From Candidatus Methanoperedens sp. (lineage in GTDB: Archaea; Halobacteriota; Methanosarcinia; Methanosarcinales; Methanoperedenaceae), in NCBI GenBank assembly GCA_028717345.1, contig JAQUNZ010000017.1:1-38172 (forward strand): a stretch of 38,172 nucleotides of DNA, read 5' to 3'. The notes under the pieces are model-generated. The model was not told where the DNA came from, ran no database searches, and worked only from the letters and a program-made list of their open reading frames with translations. This document shows positions 24,617 to 35,403 of this stretch, in pieces (position 1 is the first letter of the stretch; each line of letters begins with the position of its first letter). Position numbers and translations under genes: made by a program.

Positions 24617-25084
24617 ATGAAATTCTCCACGAATGAAAAAAGACTGCTGATGGTGTTGATAGTAGCGCTTGCTATATCAATGGGAATAGTGCTGACATCA
24701 GCTTTCTACCCTGGAAGCCATTCTTTATATCTCAACAAGACCGCCAGCACTCAACCCACATCTGCCGCTGAGTTCTGTGTGAAGTGCCATCAGGTGAGGG
24801 TCGCAAGCGTTGATACAAGCGTTCACAGGAATGCAGGATGTATCTGCCACGGGTATAACCCTAACCTGACCGCAGTGTATAATATCAATCTGGCGCACAA
24901 TCTCACGAAGAATATATACTGCACCAACTGCCATTCTGGATATAATGTAACGTCTGGTGCTATTGATATTCACAGCGGGGTCAGCGGGCTTAACCAGTCT
25001 GCGCATTATATATTGCAGAAAGGGGACAGGGCAGGGGCGTATCAGAGGGCGAAGCAGTTCTTTGATAATGTGTCGGGGGGATAG
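24617..25084 (+). CDS. Small membrane-anchored multiheme cytochrome c
   Basis: A 155-residue protein with one N-terminal membrane segment (LLMVLIVALAISMGIVLTSAF) and an extracellular part. The latter has two canonical heme c motifs, CVKCH and CTNCH, and one CICH, which lacks one spacer residue and may or may not bind heme. Several free histidines (SVHRN, LAHNL, DIHSG, SAHYI) could be distal ligands. The ATG follows GGAG by eight bases. It is followed five bases later by the tetraheme gene at 25090, so the two are co-transcribed. A membrane entry point for the neighbouring cytochromes is plausible. Confidence 0.75.
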   Translation: MKFSTNEKRLLMVLIVALAISMGIVLTSAFYPGSHSLYLNKTASTQPTSAAEFCVKCHQVRVASVDTSVHRNAGCICHGYNPNLTAVYNINLAHNLTKNIYCTNCHSGYNVTSGAIDIHSGVSGLNQSAHYILQKGDRAGAYQRAKQFFDNVSGG

Positions 25085-25089
25085 AAGAT

Positions 25090-25926
25090 ATGGACGGTAA
25101 GAAGCTGGCTCTGTATCTCATACTTATTATTTCCGTAATAGCTATGTTTTCCCAGACGCCAATGATGCAAGCCGTGGGTACAGGGCAGCATAAGTTCATC
25201 AGCGGCAAGATGGTAGATTGCGTTAAATGCCATCGGTATGATGCATTTAACGATATGAATACATCACAGGCTCTTGTTCTTGAGGCGCATAAGAGGGCTG
25301 CAGGAAATAAGAACTACACAACCTACCTTGAGGTGGGGGGGATCAGATACGACCCTTCCGGGATCATCTATACTAATGTTGACAGCGACGGGAACGGGAA
25401 TGATATATGGACATGGAACGGGTCTTTCTGGATATATAACAACACTGCAAAGCTTTATGATCTTGATTTAGACGGTTCCGGGGATATAAAAGAGGCTGAG
25501 ATATGCAAGTTCTGCCACAGCTTAGACCTTATGGGGTTGAGCGGGATCAATAATCCGGGTCATACTACAGGTACGAGGTATTGTGATGATGATAGATGCC
25601 ACGGGAACAGGAATCACACGTATAATGATTACTTATTATTTAGTGGTGGAACAGCAAATTTGACATCAGCAGGTATGATAGTAAGCAATAACAGCGTGCA
25701 CGGAGCTTTTTATAACAAGGCTGCAGGAAAGGATGCAAATGCACCTATGCTTCATTCCTATAATATGACACCGGGAAATGTCGCTCCAGGAAACATCAAC
25801 AATATTTCATCAAGCCCGTATTCTTGCCTTGGATGTCATTCATTCATTAATGTATCAGGTTCTGTTACGCAATCCCCACTGTATAGCCACAATGATCCAA
25901 ATGCATCTAGGGGACGTTATTCCTAA
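25090..25926 (+). CDS. Secreted tetraheme cytochrome c with GTGQHKF N-terminus
   Basis: A 278-residue protein with a cleavable signal peptide (LALYLILIISVIAMFS...MQA). The mature part begins GTGQHKFISGKMVDCVKCH. Heme motifs are CVKCH, CKFCH, the expanded CDDDRCH (CX4CH) and CLGCH, four in total. Seven other histidines offer axial ligands. The N-terminal GTGQHKF plus first heme matches the 225-residue protein at 27503, and the two are probably paralogues; this one has a ~50-residue insertion containing DSDGNGND. It overlaps the convergent 12-heme gene by four bases. Confidence 0.8.
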   Translation: MDGKKLALYLILIISVIAMFSQTPMMQAVGTGQHKFISGKMVDCVKCHRYDAFNDMNTSQALVLEAHKRAAGNKNYTTYLEVGGIRYDPSGIIYTNVDSDGNGNDIWTWNGSFWIYNNTAKLYDLDLDGSGDIKEAEICKFCHSLDLMGLSGINNPGHTTGTRYCDDDRCHGNRNHTYNDYLLFSGGTANLTSAGMIVSNNSVHGAFYNKAAGKDANAPMLHSYNMTPGNVAPGNINNISSSPYSCLGCHSFINVSGSVTQSPLYSHNDPNASRGRYS

Positions 25927-26882
25927 CTGGATGGGCTGGTTGAGGCAGAAAAACCGCTCCATTCGTGTGAGACACCATGACATGCCTGGCAAGATGGTAG
26001 TTTGGTCTCAACTCTATGGCAAATAGAACATTTGAGATCACGATGCTTACTCACGTTCATAGCTGTATGACAGGAGGTACAAGTTGGTATAACGCCATGC
26101 CATTTATGGCATAAAGTGCAGGTTTTCATTTCGGTGTGAAGAGTAAAGGAGTTATTTAATTCATAAAATTGTTTTTCATGGCATGGCTTGCATGCGTCAA
26201 AAGGAAGGTTCTCCGGAAGTTGATTTGTGATTGTTGGCGATATTCCAATTGGGATAATGGGGACATGAGGATCAACATGGCATCCAAGGCAAAGACTGTT
26301 ATCAGGTTTTGTTTCGTAATGTCCCTTATGGCATTGTGTGCATTTTGGTATCTCGAAAGTTGTTCCATGGCAATTCGGACAGCTCTGGTTCTTATGCGGT
26401 CCGTAAGGGATAATGATATCATTGTTCTTGATATTAAATTTATTTACATTTTTATTATAAGGCTTATGAGCCCAGTGGCAATCAGAACAGCTTGCTTCAT
26501 TCTGGACATTGAAATGGCGAAAGGAGTCCAAGCTGTGGCATTTCTTGCAGTTCACTGAAAGAGCAGAAAGGTCGATATTTAGATTGAGCCCAGTTATTTT
26601 ATGCACGGCATAGCCTTTTATTTCATCGATAAGAGCTGATTTTGCATATTTTATACTAGTATTGGAATGGCAATCAAGACATTTAAGGTCATGTTTATTG
26701 ATCACGGAACCATTTACAGGTTCAAGATACGATAACACAAAAGGTTTCATTTCATGACAAAGGCTGCATCTATCTGGATCATCAAGATTTTTCTGGATAA
26801 TAATCCCTGTGAAAAGAGCGATTATAAGTATTAATAGCCCGATAATTAAAACCTGAATAATCCTGTTTTTTTTATTTTCCAT
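25923..26882 (-). CDS. Dodecaheme membrane-anchored cytochrome (NapC/NirT-like N-terminus)
   Basis: A 319-residue protein on the opposite strand to its neighbours. An N-terminal membrane helix (VLIIGLLILIIALFTGIII) is followed by CSLCHEMKPFVLSY, reminiscent of the NapC/NirT quinol-oxidising start. Twelve CxxCH motifs run through the sequence: CSLCH, CLDCH, CKKCH, CSDCH, CPNCH, CTQCH, CLGCH, CKPCH, CTLCH, CTSCH, CSICH, CQACH. Only the N-terminal part looks NapC-like; the remainder is a periplasmic-side heme wire. It may move electrons from membrane carriers to the secreted cytochromes. The ATG at 26882 is preferred over a TTG one codon upstream. Confidence 0.85.
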   Translation of the reverse strand: MENKKNRIIQVLIIGLLILIIALFTGIIIQKNLDDPDRCSLCHEMKPFVLSYLEPVNGSVINKHDLKCLDCHSNTSIKYAKSALIDEIKGYAVHKITGLNLNIDLSALSVNCKKCHSLDSFRHFNVQNEASCSDCHWAHKPYNKNVNKFNIKNNDIIIPYGPHKNQSCPNCHGTTFEIPKCTQCHKGHYETKPDNSLCLGCHVDPHVPIIPIGISPTITNQLPENLPFDACKPCHEKQFYELNNSFTLHTEMKTCTLCHKWHGVIPTCTSCHTAMNVSKHRDLKCSICHRVETKLPSCQACHGVSHEWSGFSASTSPSS

Positions 26883-26976
26883 CAAATCATGTAAAATCTA
26901 CGAACATAAGTCTTTTTTCAAACCGATCAATGTTAAAATGGAAAATGTTATATCACCTGGATATATATGAGATGCT

Positions 26977-27420
26977 ATGAAATTGAAGCTAATAGTACTT
27001 ATTGTTTTTGTCCTGCTGATGAGCGGATGTCTGGATTCCATAAGTTCGAAAGTTCCCGTCTTATATGCAAACATCACAGTGAGCGAGGATGCAAATGGGA
27101 ATCCTACGGTCACGCAAATTGATGCCCGTGCAGGCGAGTTTCCAAAAATTAGAGCAATTGAAGATCAGGTGCCCGATGACTTTCCTGCTATAATTGTTAA
27201 TGTTATTCAGAATATGATGAGGTTAAACTATTATACAGGTAAAGACTATCATGGACCTGGTGTTTACAATTTTGTGATAGGGATGGAACATGAGGTAAAT
27301 ACCAGCGTTCCGATTATAATCAATGCATATGTTTCTTTCAATAATAGTGAAGCACCAATATCAGCCATGCTTTTTAATTGGAGTACAGAAGAACAGAGTT
27401 TAAACAAAACTTTTATATAG
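26977..27420 (+). CDS. Hypothetical lipoprotein
   Basis: A 147-residue secreted protein with signal peptide MKLKLIVLIVFVLLMSGC, where MSGC is a lipobox-like site. The mature part is rich in Asn/Thr and beta strands (VPVLYANITVSEDANGN, VPIIINAYVSFNN) and contains sequons such as NTS and NWS. It has no heme motif or cysteine beyond the lipobox. I do not recognise a family. A TATA-like TTATAT at 26948-26953 would give a nearly leaderless transcript. It sits between the 12-heme gene and the tetraheme gene. Confidence 0.75.
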   Translation: MKLKLIVLIVFVLLMSGCLDSISSKVPVLYANITVSEDANGNPTVTQIDARAGEFPKIRAIEDQVPDDFPAIIVNVIQNMMRLNYYTGKDYHGPGVYNFVIGMEHEVNTSVPIIINAYVSFNNSEAPISAMLFNWSTEEQSLNKTFI

Positions 27421-27498
27421 GTTCAAAGAGTAATAATAAATTATACCCAAATTAAACCCAAATTGGGTAAAATTGAAATGGATAGGAAAAGGAGGTGA
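27411..27498 (+). promoter_or_regulatory. Promoter, operator-like repeat and strong ribosome binding site of the tetraheme gene at 27503
   Basis: TATA element CTTTTATATAG at about 27410-27420 overlaps the stop of the lipoprotein gene; a start near 27441 follows. Right after it come ACCCAAATT (27445-27453) and ACCCAAATTGGGT (27456-27468). These are a direct repeat at 11-base spacing that ends in a perfect inverted repeat with a one-base centre. The ribosome binding site GGAGGTGA at 27491-27498 is near-perfect, four bases before the ATG. The arrangement suggests regulated, high-level expression. Confidence 0.65.
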
Positions 27499-27502
27499 AA
27501 AA

Positions 27503-28180
27503 ATGAAAGATATGAAAAAATTGACAATATTGATGGTGGCAGTTGTAGCAATTGGGGTATTCTCATTGCCTTCAGTATTATCTCTGGGTACAGGTCAGCA
27601 CAAGTTCCTTAATGGTGCATCAGTGCAGTGCGGTAAATGCCACGCAAATTCTGGCGATGGTGTTTTCAATGAATTAATGAGCTCAACCCAGAACGGCTAT
27701 AACGCATCTAATGGTGGTCTAATCACAAATGACCCAAGTCAGGTCCAGGTTGCCGGTGGAACAATCCACAATAGTACTTATTTCTGGACAGCCGGGAAAT
27801 ACGATTGTTCAAAATGCCACACAATTGCAACCGGCGGTAGAGATAAACCTGTAGGAGGCCATACAGGTGTAAAGATTAATGTAGTGTGTAAAGATTGCCA
27901 TGCTCAAGAATACGCTAAAGCAATTGGAACCAATCTTGCATCTGGTGTTGACGCACACAAAGGCTTCGTAGAAAATGGGACGTCAACAAATGGTACCTAT
28001 GCATGTATGGGTTGTCATACAATGGTCAGAGTTGCAGGTTCACCAAGCTATATATATAGCGCAGGTAAAGTTGTTGATGGACTTTCGATTGGAGGCAAAT
28101 ATTCTGGAACAGCAGATTATAGCCAGACATCTAATCCAATGACAGCAGCAGAGAGAGCTCTAGCTTCACCACCCCAGTAA
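27503..28180 (+). CDS. Secreted tetraheme cytochrome c, candidate extracellular filament subunit
   Basis: A 225-residue protein with signal peptide (KLTILMVAVVAIGVFSLPSVLS) and a mature start near GTGQHKFLNGASVQCGKCH. It contains exactly four heme motifs (CGKCH, CSKCH, CKDCH, CMGCH) and exactly four other histidines (QHK, IHN, GHT, AHK), enough for all-bis-His coordination. Four NxS/T sequons are present and there is no C-terminal anchor. Archaeal extracellular cytochrome nanowires described in Pyrobaculum and Archaeoglobus are built of tetraheme subunits; identity with them is an inference from heme count and context. The frame opens at 27473, but the ATG at 27503 follows GGAGGTGA. Confidence 0.85.
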   Translation: MKDMKKLTILMVAVVAIGVFSLPSVLSLGTGQHKFLNGASVQCGKCHANSGDGVFNELMSSTQNGYNASNGGLITNDPSQVQVAGGTIHNSTYFWTAGKYDCSKCHTIATGGRDKPVGGHTGVKINVVCKDCHAQEYAKAIGTNLASGVDAHKGFVENGTSTNGTYACMGCHTMVRVAGSPSYIYSAGKVVDGLSIGGKYSGTADYSQTSNPMTAAERALASPPQ

Positions 28181-28198
28181 TTAAATAAATAATATATT

Positions 28199-28226
28199 GT
28201 GGTGATAATATCACCACTTTTTTTTT
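28199..28226 (+). terminator. Hairpin-poly(T) terminator after the tetraheme gene
   Basis: A perfect 8-base-pair stem GTGGTGAT/ATCACCAC with loop AAT (28199-28217) is followed by nine T residues (28218-28226). It lies 19 bases after the stop. This is the strongest intrinsic terminator seen in the window and separates the tetraheme gene from the signal peptidase gene. Confidence 0.85.
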
Positions 28227-28266
28227 ATTCAAAACTTATTTATCTTTGTGCATCGTAAAAAAAAAT

Positions 28267-29025
28267 ATGCTTGAACATATATTTACTGTATTTCTTAGTA
28301 TTCTGTTACTCCTGATTTATTTCATAATATTTCATCAGGATAAGATATTAAAACTTTTTTCCTCCATTCACCTCCATAAGACCAATAAAACAAGAATTGC
28401 TCCTTACATGGAAGATTTTAAAATACATAAAGAGAGTAGAATGAGCGGAAATATTCTGGCCCAGATAATTCCTTGGTTGTTTGTTCTGGGGTTGGCATAT
28501 GTTCTTTCAAACCAGTATTTCATTTTCGGATCGGTCCTCACAGGCAGTATGGAACCTGAGTTGATGAGAGGAGATCTAGTGCTTATGCAGACATTTGCTT
28601 TAAAAGTCAATGTAGGTGACATTATTATGTTTCCAATGTTTGGTTATTATGAACCGGTGACCCACAGAGTTATAAAAATCACAAAAGAAGGTGAAATAGT
28701 TACAAAAGGAGATGCTAACCCAGATATCGATGGAGTCTTCCCTGCAAATATTGTTGCAGGAAAAGCCATAACGATAAATGGAAGACCAATACTATTAAGA
28801 GGTTGGGGATCTGCGATAAGACCAGAACAATTTGGTGACGTGCGTCTTGTTACAGAATCCACTGTAGATATCGTGGGAGCAAAAGTATTTGAACAGTTCA
28901 GGGCGCTACAACCATTGTTCATTTTTTTTGGAACGATATTTTATTTCTTCCTTCTCATAGAATCCCGAATGGGCAGCAAACGAAGTTCGGGAAATAACAG
29001 AAAAAGTAGAAAAGAAAGCAAATAG
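28267..29025 (+). CDS. Signal peptidase I (archaeal Sec11-like)
   Basis: A 252-residue membrane serine protease that removes signal peptides of secreted proteins. The catalytic Ser94 lies in TGSMEPEL, His133 in THRVIKI, and Asp149 in KGDANPDID, the Ser-His-Asp pattern of archaeal/eukaryotic enzymes. Membrane segments are near residues 5-22, 62-80 and 215-235. The ~55-residue N-terminal extension is unusual. The TATA-like TTATTTATC at 28236-28244 predicts a leaderless transcript starting at about 28266, which supports the ATG at 28267. It lies amid secreted cytochrome genes and may serve them. Confidence 0.85.
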   Translation: MLEHIFTVFLSILLLLIYFIIFHQDKILKLFSSIHLHKTNKTRIAPYMEDFKIHKESRMSGNILAQIIPWLFVLGLAYVLSNQYFIFGSVLTGSMEPELMRGDLVLMQTFALKVNVGDIIMFPMFGYYEPVTHRVIKITKEGEIVTKGDANPDIDGVFPANIVAGKAITINGRPILLRGWGSAIRPEQFGDVRLVTESTVDIVGAKVFEQFRALQPLFIFFGTIFYFFLLIESRMGSKRSSGNNRKSRKESK

Positions 29026-31119: not shown

Positions 31120-33369
31120 ATGGAGAGAGGATCAATAGTGGGAATAATAGAAAAGATGGGATTTCAGGAAAGGAAAAACCGAATTTTTTCAACTATTTTT
31201 ATTGCAGCCATAGTTATTATATCACTCGTGTCGATATTGATGGTTTTTACCGGAACTCCACAGGGCTATACTCCAGTAACGTTGGTGTGCATATCCTGTC
31301 ATAATGATTCAGGTTTTCCCAGTGATACAGATAATAACAGTATTATTGCTCCATACAAGCGTCCTCATAATGACTCAGTGATGTGTGAAACCTGTCATCG
31401 TTCAAATCCTCATACGATCGGATTTATCCAGCGAAATGGTCTGTTCGGCTTAAGATCAACTGCAGTATCCTGTCCGGAATGCCATCAAACAGGTGTCCCT
31501 AATTTCACAAGCGCCCCCATGATCCCGCCGCGATTCATGCATGGAAATAATATTACGCAAGGTTCGAAATGGGGCAGTTACTGGAACAGTTCACGACTCA
31601 AAACAGCATGTATTTACTGCCACGACAACACTTTGCATAATATAACACCTGTTGGCAGAATACTTGGATTTGCCTTAAGGAACAGCAGTTCATGTTCAAA
31701 TTGTCATTATAAAGGTAATGCGAACTACAGTATTATGATCAATGCATTTTCATCAGCGGGATTAGAAAGACCTCCTGAAATAACAAATGGCACAGGCTGG
31801 AATGGTTCTGAATCCGGCTATTATAATCACACACTGGATCAATACAGTAATGATAGATGCAAGATGTGTCATGGTTCATTTATTAGTTTAAATGCAACCA
31901 TGCCCGAATTTGTCCATAATGTATCAGAAGCCGCTGGTGGAGAGTGTATTGGATGTCATACTTCAAACCAGAATATGACTGGAAGTCTCTTCTTTGAGGG
32001 GATCAATCTATCATCTTTTGGCAAACATATCAATGTTAATACATCGAATGGAACTGATCTCCTTACGAACGATGATTGTACAACCTGCCACTATGATTTC
32101 AATTTCTCAGATATGATGCTTCCAAATTTCACGACCAGGACAAAGACATGCACCGAATGCCATATTTATGGTAACTTCTCTGCACCTGTGATCTCAAACC
32201 ACAGACCGAATGGAACTTCTGTTGGAACAACAACATACTGTTCAACATGCCACAATAACAGTATCAACAAATATGCATATTCAGTGAATGCAAGTGTTGG
32301 TCACTATGGAACAAATGCATCCCTGGTCAAACCTACAGTGAACCAGACAGCAAGACCGGTGAATGGATTTATGGACTCAGCCGATGCATCTTCGTACAAC
32401 AGAGCATGCAATAATTGCCACAATCCAAAGAACACAAGTTACGGAAATCCGCCGCTGATAACAACGCCACATACACCCACAGCAACATGCAATCAGTGCC
32501 ATGTCAATACAAACGCAACTGATCTGCATAATGCTTCCATTATAATACCTGGAGGAGGTTGCATCGATTGCCATTCAGTCAATGCTTCAAGATATAAGGC
32601 GCCGAATCTTACAGGAACGGATATGATTTACTCATCATTTTGTGATTCAAATACCTGCCATGGAACTTATCCTGATAATGGAAATAATGTCATTGATTCA
32701 TTGGGAGAACATAACATAAACAGGTACGAACGCGGGTACACAGGAAGAGGAGGTTATACAGATACGGTATATCTCAATGGACAGGCAGCACTTACGGTGC
32801 CAAAAGGAGCTATTGTCACTATAACTTCAAGAGTAAATGATACATCAGGTTCAGCGAGCAGGGTAGGTGGAGCTGAATATTATTACACCACCACAGATCC
32901 GGGTCAGGGTAAAGGAATACCGATGAACGCAGTTGATGGACAATTTGATGCGGTCAACAGGGCGTGGGAAGATGTTACAGCTACTCTTGATACGAGCGGT
33001 TTACCAGTAGGTACTTATACAATCAACGTCCGCGGTGTGGATATCGGAAAACAGTGGAGCCAGGTAAAGAATGCAACTCTTATAGTGCAGTCGCTGGGTT
33101 ATATCAATGGAACTGTAAAAAGTAGCGGCTCAGGAATTGCAGGTGCTTCGATATCAGCGACAAATGCAAGTACAACATCAGCAGTTGATGGTACCTTTAA
33201 CTTGAGCATATCATCAGGCACATACAATGTTACTGCGAGTAAGCAGCCTGAATATTACGATAACATTACCAGCGGTGTGGTTGTAACTCAATCGAATACC
33301 ACAACTTTGTATATAGTTATAATTGGGAAACCAACCGGTACATTGAGCGGTGTGGTGAGAAGTATATAA
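31120..33369 (+). CDS. Large surface multiheme cytochrome with Ig-like and carboxypeptidase-regulatory-like domains
   Basis: A 749-residue protein with an N-terminal signal anchor (IFSTIFIAAIVIISLVSILMVF). Residues ~55-530 carry 13 CxxCH motifs (from CISCH and CETCH to CNQCH and CIDCH) and one CDSNTCH (CX4CH), 14 potential hemes. Residues ~545-660 form a beta domain with GRGGYTDTVYLNG. Residues ~665-735 are a carboxypeptidase-regulatory-like repeat (GYINGTVKSSGSGIAGASI). The end, GTLSGVVRSI, looks like the beginning of another repeat. By hand I count about 39 NxS/T sequons. It probably sits outside the membrane in the S-layer zone. Its last 1134 bases are duplicated at 34270-35403. Confidence 0.87.
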   Translation: MERGSIVGIIEKMGFQERKNRIFSTIFIAAIVIISLVSILMVFTGTPQGYTPVTLVCISCHNDSGFPSDTDNNSIIAPYKRPHNDSVMCETCHRSNPHTIGFIQRNGLFGLRSTAVSCPECHQTGVPNFTSAPMIPPRFMHGNNITQGSKWGSYWNSSRLKTACIYCHDNTLHNITPVGRILGFALRNSSSCSNCHYKGNANYSIMINAFSSAGLERPPEITNGTGWNGSESGYYNHTLDQYSNDRCKMCHGSFISLNATMPEFVHNVSEAAGGECIGCHTSNQNMTGSLFFEGINLSSFGKHINVNTSNGTDLLTNDDCTTCHYDFNFSDMMLPNFTTRTKTCTECHIYGNFSAPVISNHRPNGTSVGTTTYCSTCHNNSINKYAYSVNASVGHYGTNASLVKPTVNQTARPVNGFMDSADASSYNRACNNCHNPKNTSYGNPPLITTPHTPTATCNQCHVNTNATDLHNASIIIPGGGCIDCHSVNASRYKAPNLTGTDMIYSSFCDSNTCHGTYPDNGNNVIDSLGEHNINRYERGYTGRGGYTDTVYLNGQAALTVPKGAIVTITSRVNDTSGSASRVGGAEYYYTTTDPGQGKGIPMNAVDGQFDAVNRAWEDVTATLDTSGLPVGTYTINVRGVDIGKQWSQVKNATLIVQSLGYINGTVKSSGSGIAGASISATNASTTSAVDGTFNLSISSGTYNVTASKQPEYYDNITSGVVVTQSNTTTLYIVIIGKPTGTLSGVVRSI
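32236..33369 (+). repeat. 1134-bp segmental duplication, copy 1 (partner at 34270-35403)
   Basis: This segment encodes the last five heme motifs plus both C-terminal domains of the 749-residue cytochrome. It aligns with 34270-35403 end to end with the same total length. Identity is very high over the first ~850 bases, and lower in the final domain. Confidence 0.85.
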
Positions 33370-33499: not shown

Positions 33500-34132
33500 A
33501 TGAACACATATTCAATGACAACTTATGTCCCGCAGAACTGCACCAACTGCCATACAGGCAGTGGCATCCCGGATGCTCCCATAGTATCCGAACATAACCA
33601 GTTCGGTCAGGACGTAATAACCAGTGTCAACTGTACCTTATGCCACAGCAACAGCGGAATGTACCTTAGTAACAATGGAACAAACGGCACCACCACAGCC
33701 ATAGTGCACTATCTCAAAGACGTCACAAATCTCGGCACAAGTCCGGTTGGACATAACGGCACGATCAATACCTCGAACTGTATTGACTGTCACAACGGTC
33801 CTTACACAGGCGTATCATCCTGGGGAGCCCCGGTCAATATCAGCACCAGCACAAAGCGAACACATATCGAGACTCAGACAGGTCAGTGCGATCTTTGTCA
33901 TAAGGACGGCACAGTACAAAGTCTGGCACTGGTTGATTTCCATAATGCATCGATCAAACTTGCATCCACCAATGACTGCATAAGCTGCCATACGCAGGAT
34001 CAGAGAGGTTACCCGGCGATCAATCTCACCTTATTCACCAGACACAGCAACGTCAACACCACAGGCGGTCAGAACAATCTCACCAACGATGACTCACCAC
34101 CTGCCATTACAACTTCAACTACACTGAAATGA
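33500..34132 (+). CDS. 5' fragment of the broken multiheme cytochrome gene
   Basis: The part readable from the first ATG encodes 210 residues with CTNCH, CTLCH, CIDCH, CDLCH and CISCH. It ends in the shifted sequence DDSPPAITTSTTLK. The matching place in the intact neighbour reads DDCTTCHYDFNF. There is no signal peptide, so this piece alone could not be matured as a c-type cytochrome. Base composition is somewhat richer in GC than in the downstream fragment, hinting at a different ancestry. Confidence 0.6.
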   Translation: MNTYSMTTYVPQNCTNCHTGSGIPDAPIVSEHNQFGQDVITSVNCTLCHSNSGMYLSNNGTNGTTTAIVHYLKDVTNLGTSPVGHNGTINTSNCIDCHNGPYTGVSSWGAPVNISTSTKRTHIETQTGQCDLCHKDGTVQSLALVDFHNASIKLASTNDCISCHTQDQRGYPAINLTLFTRHSNVNTTGGQNNLTNDDSPPAITTSTTLK

Positions 34133-35403
34133 ACCAGACCGGGTTCACAACGAACACAAAGGTATGCTCAGACTGCCACATTGACGGCAGCTACCAGGCA
34201 CCAATAATAAGCAATCACAAACCTCCCAAACAGACAATAGTCTCAGGAGGAAATATAATAACAGGTGCATATTGTTCAACCTGCCACAATAACAGCATCA
34301 ACAGATATGCATATTCTGTGAATGCAAGTGTTGGTCACTATGGAACGAACGCATCACTTGTCAAGCCAACCGTTAATCAGACAGCAAGACCGGTGAATGG
34401 ATTTATGAATCCAGGTGATGCATTATCATACAATAAAGAATGCAATAACTGTCACAATCCAGCGAACACAAGTTATGGGAACCCGCAGTTAATATCAACG
34501 CCACACACCCCCACAGCAACATGCAATCAGTGCCATGTGGATACAAGTGCAACCGATCTGCATAATTCATCCCTCAGAATACCTGCGATGGGATGCCTTG
34601 ATTGTCATACAACGAATGCGTCAAGAAATAGAGCTCCAAATCTTACGAATACGTATATGGTGGATTCAACTAATTGCGATTCAACTTCATGCCATGGTAC
34701 TTCCCAGGACAATGGAAATGATTTGCTGGATACTTTGAATGAACATAACATAAACAGGAACGAACGCGGGTTCACAGGAAGAGGAGGTTATACCGATACA
34801 GTATATCTCAATGGACAGACATCACTTACGGTGCCAAAAGGAGCTATTGTCACTATAACATCCAGGGTAAATGATACATCAGGTTCGGCGAGCAGGGTAG
34901 GCGGAGCTGAATATTATTACTCCAGCACAGATCCAGGTAACGGCAGTGGAATACCGATGAACGCAGTTGATGGACAATTTGATGCAGTCAACAGGAACTG
35001 GGAAGATGTTACAGCTACTCTTGATACCAGCAGTTTAACAGCAGGAACATACATCATTAATGTACGCGGTGCAGATATCGGTAAACAGTGGAGTACGACT
35101 AAAACAGCGATATTGACAGTCACTGCAATGGGATACATCAATGGTACGGTCACGAATGGCACTTCACCAGTCAGCGGGGTATATGTATCCACGATCGGAG
35201 ATAACTATACCACAGGTCCTGATGGAAAATATTCATTGAAGGTTGATGCAAATACATACACCGTCACTGCAACAAAACAACCAACACACTACGATAATAT
35301 AACCTCTGGTATTGTAGTTACCCAATCGAATACAACTATATTCGATATCGTTCTAACAGAAAAGCCCAAAGGAACGATAACCGGCACGGTAAGGAATGCC
35401 TGA
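34129..35403 (+). CDS. 3' fragment of the broken multiheme cytochrome gene
   Basis: A 424-residue frame starting at an internal ATG (MNQTGFTTNTKVCSDCH). It carries CSDCH, CSTCH, CNNCH, CNQCH, CLDCH and CDSTSCH (CX4CH), then the GRGGYTDTVYLNG beta domain and one carboxypeptidase-regulatory-like repeat, ending GTITGTVRNA. The true frame continues upstream through an intact TGC CAT to the frameshift at 34094. From 34270 it is colinear with the end of the 749-residue cytochrome. No signal peptide, so it would be functional only as part of the restored gene. Confidence 0.65.
   Translation: MNQTGFTTNTKVCSDCHIDGSYQAPIISNHKPPKQTIVSGGNIITGAYCSTCHNNSINRYAYSVNASVGHYGTNASLVKPTVNQTARPVNGFMNPGDALSYNKECNNCHNPANTSYGNPQLISTPHTPTATCNQCHVDTSATDLHNSSLRIPAMGCLDCHTTNASRNRAPNLTNTYMVDSTNCDSTSCHGTSQDNGNDLLDTLNEHNINRNERGFTGRGGYTDTVYLNGQTSLTVPKGAIVTITSRVNDTSGSASRVGGAEYYYSSTDPGNGSGIPMNAVDGQFDAVNRNWEDVTATLDTSSLTAGTYIINVRGADIGKQWSTTKTAILTVTAMGYINGTVTNGTSPVSGVYVSTIGDNYTTGPDGKYSLKVDANTYTVTATKQPTHYDNITSGIVVTQSNTTIFDIVLTEKPKGTITGTVRNA
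34270..35403 (+). repeat. 1134-bp segmental duplication, copy 2 (partner at 32236-33369)
   Basis: Same length and order as 32236-33369, beginning at the CSTCHNNSIN codons. Differences are mostly silent in the heme part (for example AATAACAGT versus AATAACAGC), which points to selection on protein after the duplication. Confidence 0.85.

Follow-up and report, generated by a model that had tools for sequence, protein, structure and literature searches.

A candidate extracellular cytochrome nanowire subunit of 'Candidatus Methanoperedens' and a recurrent control element ahead of its gene

Does the tetraheme cytochrome gene at positions 27503-28180 of a 'Candidatus Methanoperedens' sp. contig encode a subunit of an extracellular cytochrome nanowire, and what governs its expression? 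The window analyzed is the whole 38,172-nucleotide stretch of contig JAQUNZ010000017.1 (assembly GCA_028717345.1). An initial annotation of the window had described a secreted protein of 225 residues with four CxxCH motifs and exactly four other histidines, and proposed it as a filament subunit. The open reading frame at 27503-28180 (+ strand) confirms the protein, with export as a prediction; homology and heme motifs identify it as an ECN-family tetraheme c-type cytochrome and candidate filament subunit. The CxxCH motifs begin at residues 43, 102, 129, and 168 and are CGKCH (27629-27643), CSKCH (27806-27820), CKDCH (27887-27901), and CMGCH (28004-28018), all on the + strand. The histidines outside these motifs are residues 33, 89, 120, and 152. 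A hydrophobic signal peptide of approximately residues 1-27 (27503-27583, + strand) was unusually conserved in alignments; this conserved N-terminus is a putative export signal that would be cleaved off. It is followed by a GQH motif at the mature N-terminus, in which the invariant His33 (27599-27601, + strand) is a candidate ligand shared with an adjacent subunit. The nearest named relatives were from uncultured archaea LFW-280 and 'Candidatus Methanoperedens' sp., and the genome of the window falls in the genus of those records; one related genome used here, G030, is JAPZAV010000170.

Kinship with the filament cytochromes of Pyrobaculum and Archaeoglobus had been suggested at the outset, and it held for Archaeoglobus. 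A lack of any similarity to filament cytochromes had been named as a refuting outcome, and the search contradicts it. The closest protein in the PDB was 8E5G, which is F2KMU8, the filament cytochrome AvECN of Archaeoglobus veneficus (PMC11936953). It was the best match of the single protein (phmmer E 4e-7), and a profile of 27 homologs matched it over its full length at E 3.2e-39 (next PDB match, 3.7e-8), spanning the signal peptide, GQH, and all four hemes. Pairwise identity to AvECN was only about 28%. The Pyrobaculum part of the suggestion did not hold up, as PcECN (8E5F) was absent from the single-protein PDB hits and from the best 60 profile hits. His33 and His152 were invariant among the 27 homologs and His120 was at least 90% conserved, and in a 12-sequence alignment that included AvECN the GQH motif (His33), all four CxxCH motifs, His120, and His152 were invariant. 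His89, the fourth extra histidine, falls where the alignment to AvECN is insecure. The homologs first aligned had 8 to 13 histidines in total, and several had 8; possession of exactly four extra histidines was therefore rejected as proof by itself. As read from the alignments, the diagnostic point is the conservation of the extra histidines rather than their number. In AvECN the distal histidine of three of the four hemes comes from another subunit (reviewed in PMC12203936). Since the protein has only four spare histidines and at least three of them occupy AvECN positions, an AvECN-like assembly would be the simplest reading. An AlphaFold2 model of the mature protein built from six input sequences (pLDDT 33, pTM 0.25) was discarded.

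The protein and AvECN thus share full-length homology, a conserved signal region, GQH, four CxxCH motifs, and three further histidines, whereas they differ in the region between hemes 1 and 2 and at the C-terminus. A C-terminal VNITWxR stretch that is usual in the family is missing from the closest ECN group, so subunit packing may differ there. By published description, MmcX of Met12 (Methanocellales) is alike in its four hemes and AvECN homology, and Methanoperedenaceae proteins share the MmcX clade of the published tree; the MmcX gene ranks with the most strongly expressed ones of its host, and the protein takes electrons when made in Shewanella (PMC11176372). An ECN has also been named in 'Ca. 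Methanoperedens' BLZ2 (WP_097300794.1; PMC12246660), which we liken to the present protein by genus and name rather than by sequence. With a Methanoperedens ECN already named, a member here is not unexpected, and this candidate subunit adds to a kind already known from AvECN, MmcX, and the named Methanoperedens ECN. The OmcZ-like cluster of Methanoperedens and Borgs (PMC10874420, PMC11208441) also contains a proposed nanowire subunit in the same genus, but it has eight hemes and a subtilisin-type protease, OzpA, and is unrelated. Neither OmcS nor OmcZ was among the best 60 PDB profile hits. Geobacter OmcE (7TFS) likewise forms a tetraheme filament in which a neighboring subunit gives a histidine ligand; however, it is described as unrelated to AvECN and PcECN (PMC12203936), and our profile matched it only weakly and partially (E 0.0037, positions 66-122, 57 positions).

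ECN homologs were present in 45 of 60 related genomes and, by profile search, in 37 of 197 genomes of a phylum sample; none of the listed genomes of family f5, which has many large single-contig genomes and is probably the methanogenic Methanosarcinaceae, was positive. Published work reports such small cytochromes from ANME, Syntrophoarchaeum, and some Archaeoglobales but not from methanogens (PMC9012536), and the distribution found in these genomes agrees. Small cytochromes that are apparently of the ECN group were among the most transcribed ANME genes in the same study (PMC9012536). A separate ECN branch (for example L071:7808-9115 and L045:6630-7940) consists of proteins of 418-445 amino acids with five CxxCH motifs; the control element described below is mostly present ahead of their genes, and several have a long leader of about 130 nucleotides. 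AvECN was nearest to this branch on the tree, but through a long branch. In another family of the order (genome G036, L042:9848-15259), four near-tandem ECN-family genes preceded those for a 9-heme cytochrome and a signal peptidase.

The gene was also said to have a TATA box, a ribosome binding site, and a hairpin-T9 terminator of its own, and each of these was found. On its + strand the window has a single copy each of the TATA-like box TTTATATA (27412-27419) and the strong ribosome binding site GGAGGTGA (27491-27498). The box overlaps the stop codon of the preceding gene (26977-27420), so a separate ECN transcript is likely. The binding site is part of a leader, GGATAGGAAAAGGAGGTGA (27480-27498, + strand), and leader alignment of relatives showed that a GGRTAGGA-type sequence is kept beside the control element. 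The intrinsic terminator at 28199-28226 (+ strand) consists of the 8-bp hairpin GTGGTGATAATATCACCAC and T9; the hairpin folded at about -11 kcal/mol (z -3.1), and a hairpin with a T-run was present downstream of all 5 genes of the closest group. The gene's own promoter and terminator, as predicted, suggest heavy production of the protein.

The genes around the cytochrome are conserved as well. The next gene downstream (28246-29025, + strand) encodes an archaeal type I signal peptidase by TIGR02228 (66.9 bits against a cut-off of 51.85, E 1.8e-18) and carries the catalytic-type motifs GSMEP, THRVI, and KGDAN. A type I signal peptidase was the next gene in 5 of 5 members of the closest ECN group, ECN genes of other families in the order also have signal peptidases beside them, and earlier work remarked on one close to cytochrome genes of ANME (PMC9012536). 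Upstream are a small anchored cytochrome with two CxxCH motifs and weak NapC/NirT similarity (24617-25084, + strand), a 278-residue ECN paralog with three CxxCH motifs, one CX4CH motif, and its own GQH (25090-25926, + strand), a 12-heme membrane-anchored cytochrome (25923-26885, - strand), and a lipoprotein-like protein with the lipobox ...LLMSGC (26977-27420, + strand). In the closest group and at many Methanoperedens loci, ECN occurs with the two-CxxCH cytochrome, the CX4CH paralog (260-280 amino acids), the 12-heme cytochrome on the opposite strand, and this protein of about 140 amino acids. Elsewhere in the window, a frameshift seems to have split one multiheme gene into 33500-34132 and 34129-35403, because the motif expected past TNDD continues in the other frame; 31120-33369 and this split gene (33500-35403) resemble tandem copies of a large cytochrome.

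The family of the lipoprotein-like protein has no Pfam assignment. Within 3 kb of an ECN-family gene we found 48 of its 56 members, and none occurred in an ECN-negative genome among the 60 relatives. In the phylum sample of 197 genomes, 20 of 22 carriers had ECN, and the two ECN-less carriers (G162 and G220) are incomplete genomes. AlphaFold predicted a beta-sandwich (pLDDT 83.7). In a Foldseek comparison of this model with the PDB, no hit fell below E 1e-3 (best 0.016, with low TM-scores), and we therefore call the protein a beta-sandwich only and transfer no function to it. We propose a role in anchoring or assembly. The partner marks another difference from AvECN, as its family was not seen in f9, a family of the phylum sample that we take as Archaeoglobaceae; the notion that the partner is needed for polymerization everywhere is weakened, because f9 has ECN and seems to be without it.

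One ECN-family gene was found on a tailed-virus contig (L072:6001-9637; IMG/VR 3300020045_010174, 74,458 bases; G060) that carries a terminase, a portal, a tail tube, DNA polymerase B, and an anaerobic NTP reductase. Its cytochrome has 374 amino acids and five CxxCH motifs and is nested inside a Methanoperedens clade on the tree. A second GQH protein is encoded next, and then a lipoprotein-like partner and a type I signal peptidase, a gene set that is possibly a viral nanowire cassette. A scan of viral contigs for the ECN group of the window itself found none.

Between promoter and leader lies the element ATACCCAAATT-AA-ACCCAAATT-GGGT (27443-27468, + strand), identified by its recurrence in relatives and a covarying dyad. 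The ACCCAA repeat block ACCCAAATTAAACCCAAATTGGGT (27445-27468) within it is the most significant of the features noted initially. The two units are 11 bp apart, the second belongs to a 13-bp dyad, and the element sits at or just past the predicted transcription start; relatives too have a TATA-like sequence about 28 nucleotides ahead of it. We searched 60 related genomes with ACCCAAATTAANCCCAAATTGGG, allowing up to two mismatches, and used the reversed pattern as the control. There were 21 matches in 20 of the 60 genomes (19 of 31 of the genus and 1 of a sister genus), whereas the reversed pattern gave 0 matches. Each of the 21 preceded, on the same strand and at a distance of no more than about 150 nucleotides, an ECN-family gene whose product has four or five CxxCH motifs. 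A sequence-only model built from these sites added genomes G008 and G003, both ahead of ECN-family genes, and two further ECN genes were preceded by longer, diverged versions. A control region of the gene's own, as initially described, is thus real and conserved. Viral contigs scanned for the exact element yielded none. Weaker matches (E 1e-8 downwards) occurred near other genes, and several of them shared TTATACCCAAATT about 28 nucleotides past a TATA-like sequence; the absolute claim that the element stands only before ECN genes was rejected for this reason. Copies of this weaker type, TTATACCCAAATT-n-CCAAAT, were seen at L124 (G000:C1:9405-9456), L126, L130, L131, L134, and L135, about 28 nucleotides past TATA-like sequences, for instance beside an FtsZ-like gene and ahead of a CxRCGWCCR protein. 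In these genomes, then, the element recurs almost only ahead of ECN-family genes. With strong sites at ECN genes and weak ones elsewhere, the strong form is tied to ECN, and the weaker copies hint that the unit could be part of a wider regulon.

The ACCCAA repeat had been called operator-like. The repeat proved conserved, and we favor a site on the DNA for an operator or activator over a leader hairpin, judging by the 11-bp repeat and by a first unit that does not vary. The other reading, in which the element acts as RNA through a leader hairpin or alternative hairpins at the start of the mRNA, is somewhat unlikely, though not without evidence: the predicted start is just ahead of the element, which would place it within the mRNA; the outermost dyad position of the second unit shows A-U, C-G, U-A, and G-C pairs, with six doubly changed sequences; the covariation score was reached by 0 of 500 shuffles; and one extra base is tolerated in the dyad. 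The same covariation would be expected of a symmetric DNA site, however, and a direct repeat at 11 bp fits one DNA turn. The consensus energy from RNAalifold was only -0.7 kcal/mol, and no Rfam family reached threshold (for a CRISPR-repeat match at 27482 the score was 19.1 bits and the cut-off 39). Because the first ACCCAA unit never varies, its pairing with the GGG arm was unsupported. Mere inheritance of the element with one ECN lineage, with no regulatory meaning, seems quite improbable to us. The genomes are related and intergenic DNA can persist by descent, but the carriers fall in several distant paralog clades that force at least 11 gains or losses on the tree, a count in which a few element-negative genes may be truncated or have degenerate sites. 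Near-identical 23-mers also precede proteins only about 30% identical, and the intergenic DNA around the element is much less conserved than the element itself.

For the protein, a resemblance to ECN through heme motifs alone would leave an unrelated tetraheme cytochrome. CxxCH does inflate cytochrome scores, and other multiheme proteins matched at 1e-8 to 1e-3; at E 3e-39, however, 8E5G is about 31 orders of magnitude ahead of the next protein, which makes this explanation scarcely credible. A non-polymerizing shuttle, in which the tetraheme protein would remain between membrane and S-layer, taking electrons from the membrane cytochromes (24617, 25923) and handing them on to giant cytochromes of the S-layer, is unlikely but has more in its favor. 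The neighbors are membrane-anchored multiheme cytochromes, a role as intermediate carriers has been suggested for small cytochromes of ANME (PMC9012536), and the C-terminus has diverged in the closest group. Against this stand the full-length homology to a polymerizing protein, the retention of the N-terminal GQH and the ligand histidines, and the heavy production that promoter and terminator suggest. The gene probably encodes an AvECN/MmcX-family cytochrome that forms the subunit of an extracellular nanowire in 'Candidatus Methanoperedens'. Full-length homology to AvECN with invariant hemes and histidines supports the proposed filament reading well at the level of the family, while polymerization itself, like ligand exchange, the direction of regulation, and the roles of the neighbors, is what we infer from these sequences.

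In the mechanism that we propose, the protein would be exported and its signal peptide cut off, plausibly by the adjacent type I signal peptidase. Four hemes would be attached, and the subunits would then stack, with some distal ligands supplied by adjacent subunits; His33, in the exposed N-terminal GQH, would probably be one of them. Along the resulting continuous heme chain, electrons released in methane oxidation would leave the cell. Expression would be set by the gene's own promoter with the conserved element at the transcription start. Some workers dispute cytochrome filaments as the physiological conduits, even in Geobacter (PMC11077965).

A broader proposal, which we hold only tentatively, is that Methanoperedens has a dedicated module for nanowire control and assembly. 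The element (ATACCCAAATT repeated at 11 bp, the GGG dyad, and the GGATAGGA leader) would set the expression of ECN-family genes, the controlled gene varying by species, and the anchored beta-sandwich protein, signal peptidase, CX4CH paralog, and 12-heme cytochrome would prepare, anchor, and feed the filament. The literature searched, which did not extend to the original ECN paper, gave no description of the element or of the partner family, and both appear to be new. The route by which anaerobic methanotrophs dispose of electrons outside the cell has yet to be settled, and it matters for a major sink of methane. The element offers a sequence with which to fish for the regulator and a marker of the ECN gene under this control, and the partner protein is a candidate for anchoring or assembling archaeal nanowires.
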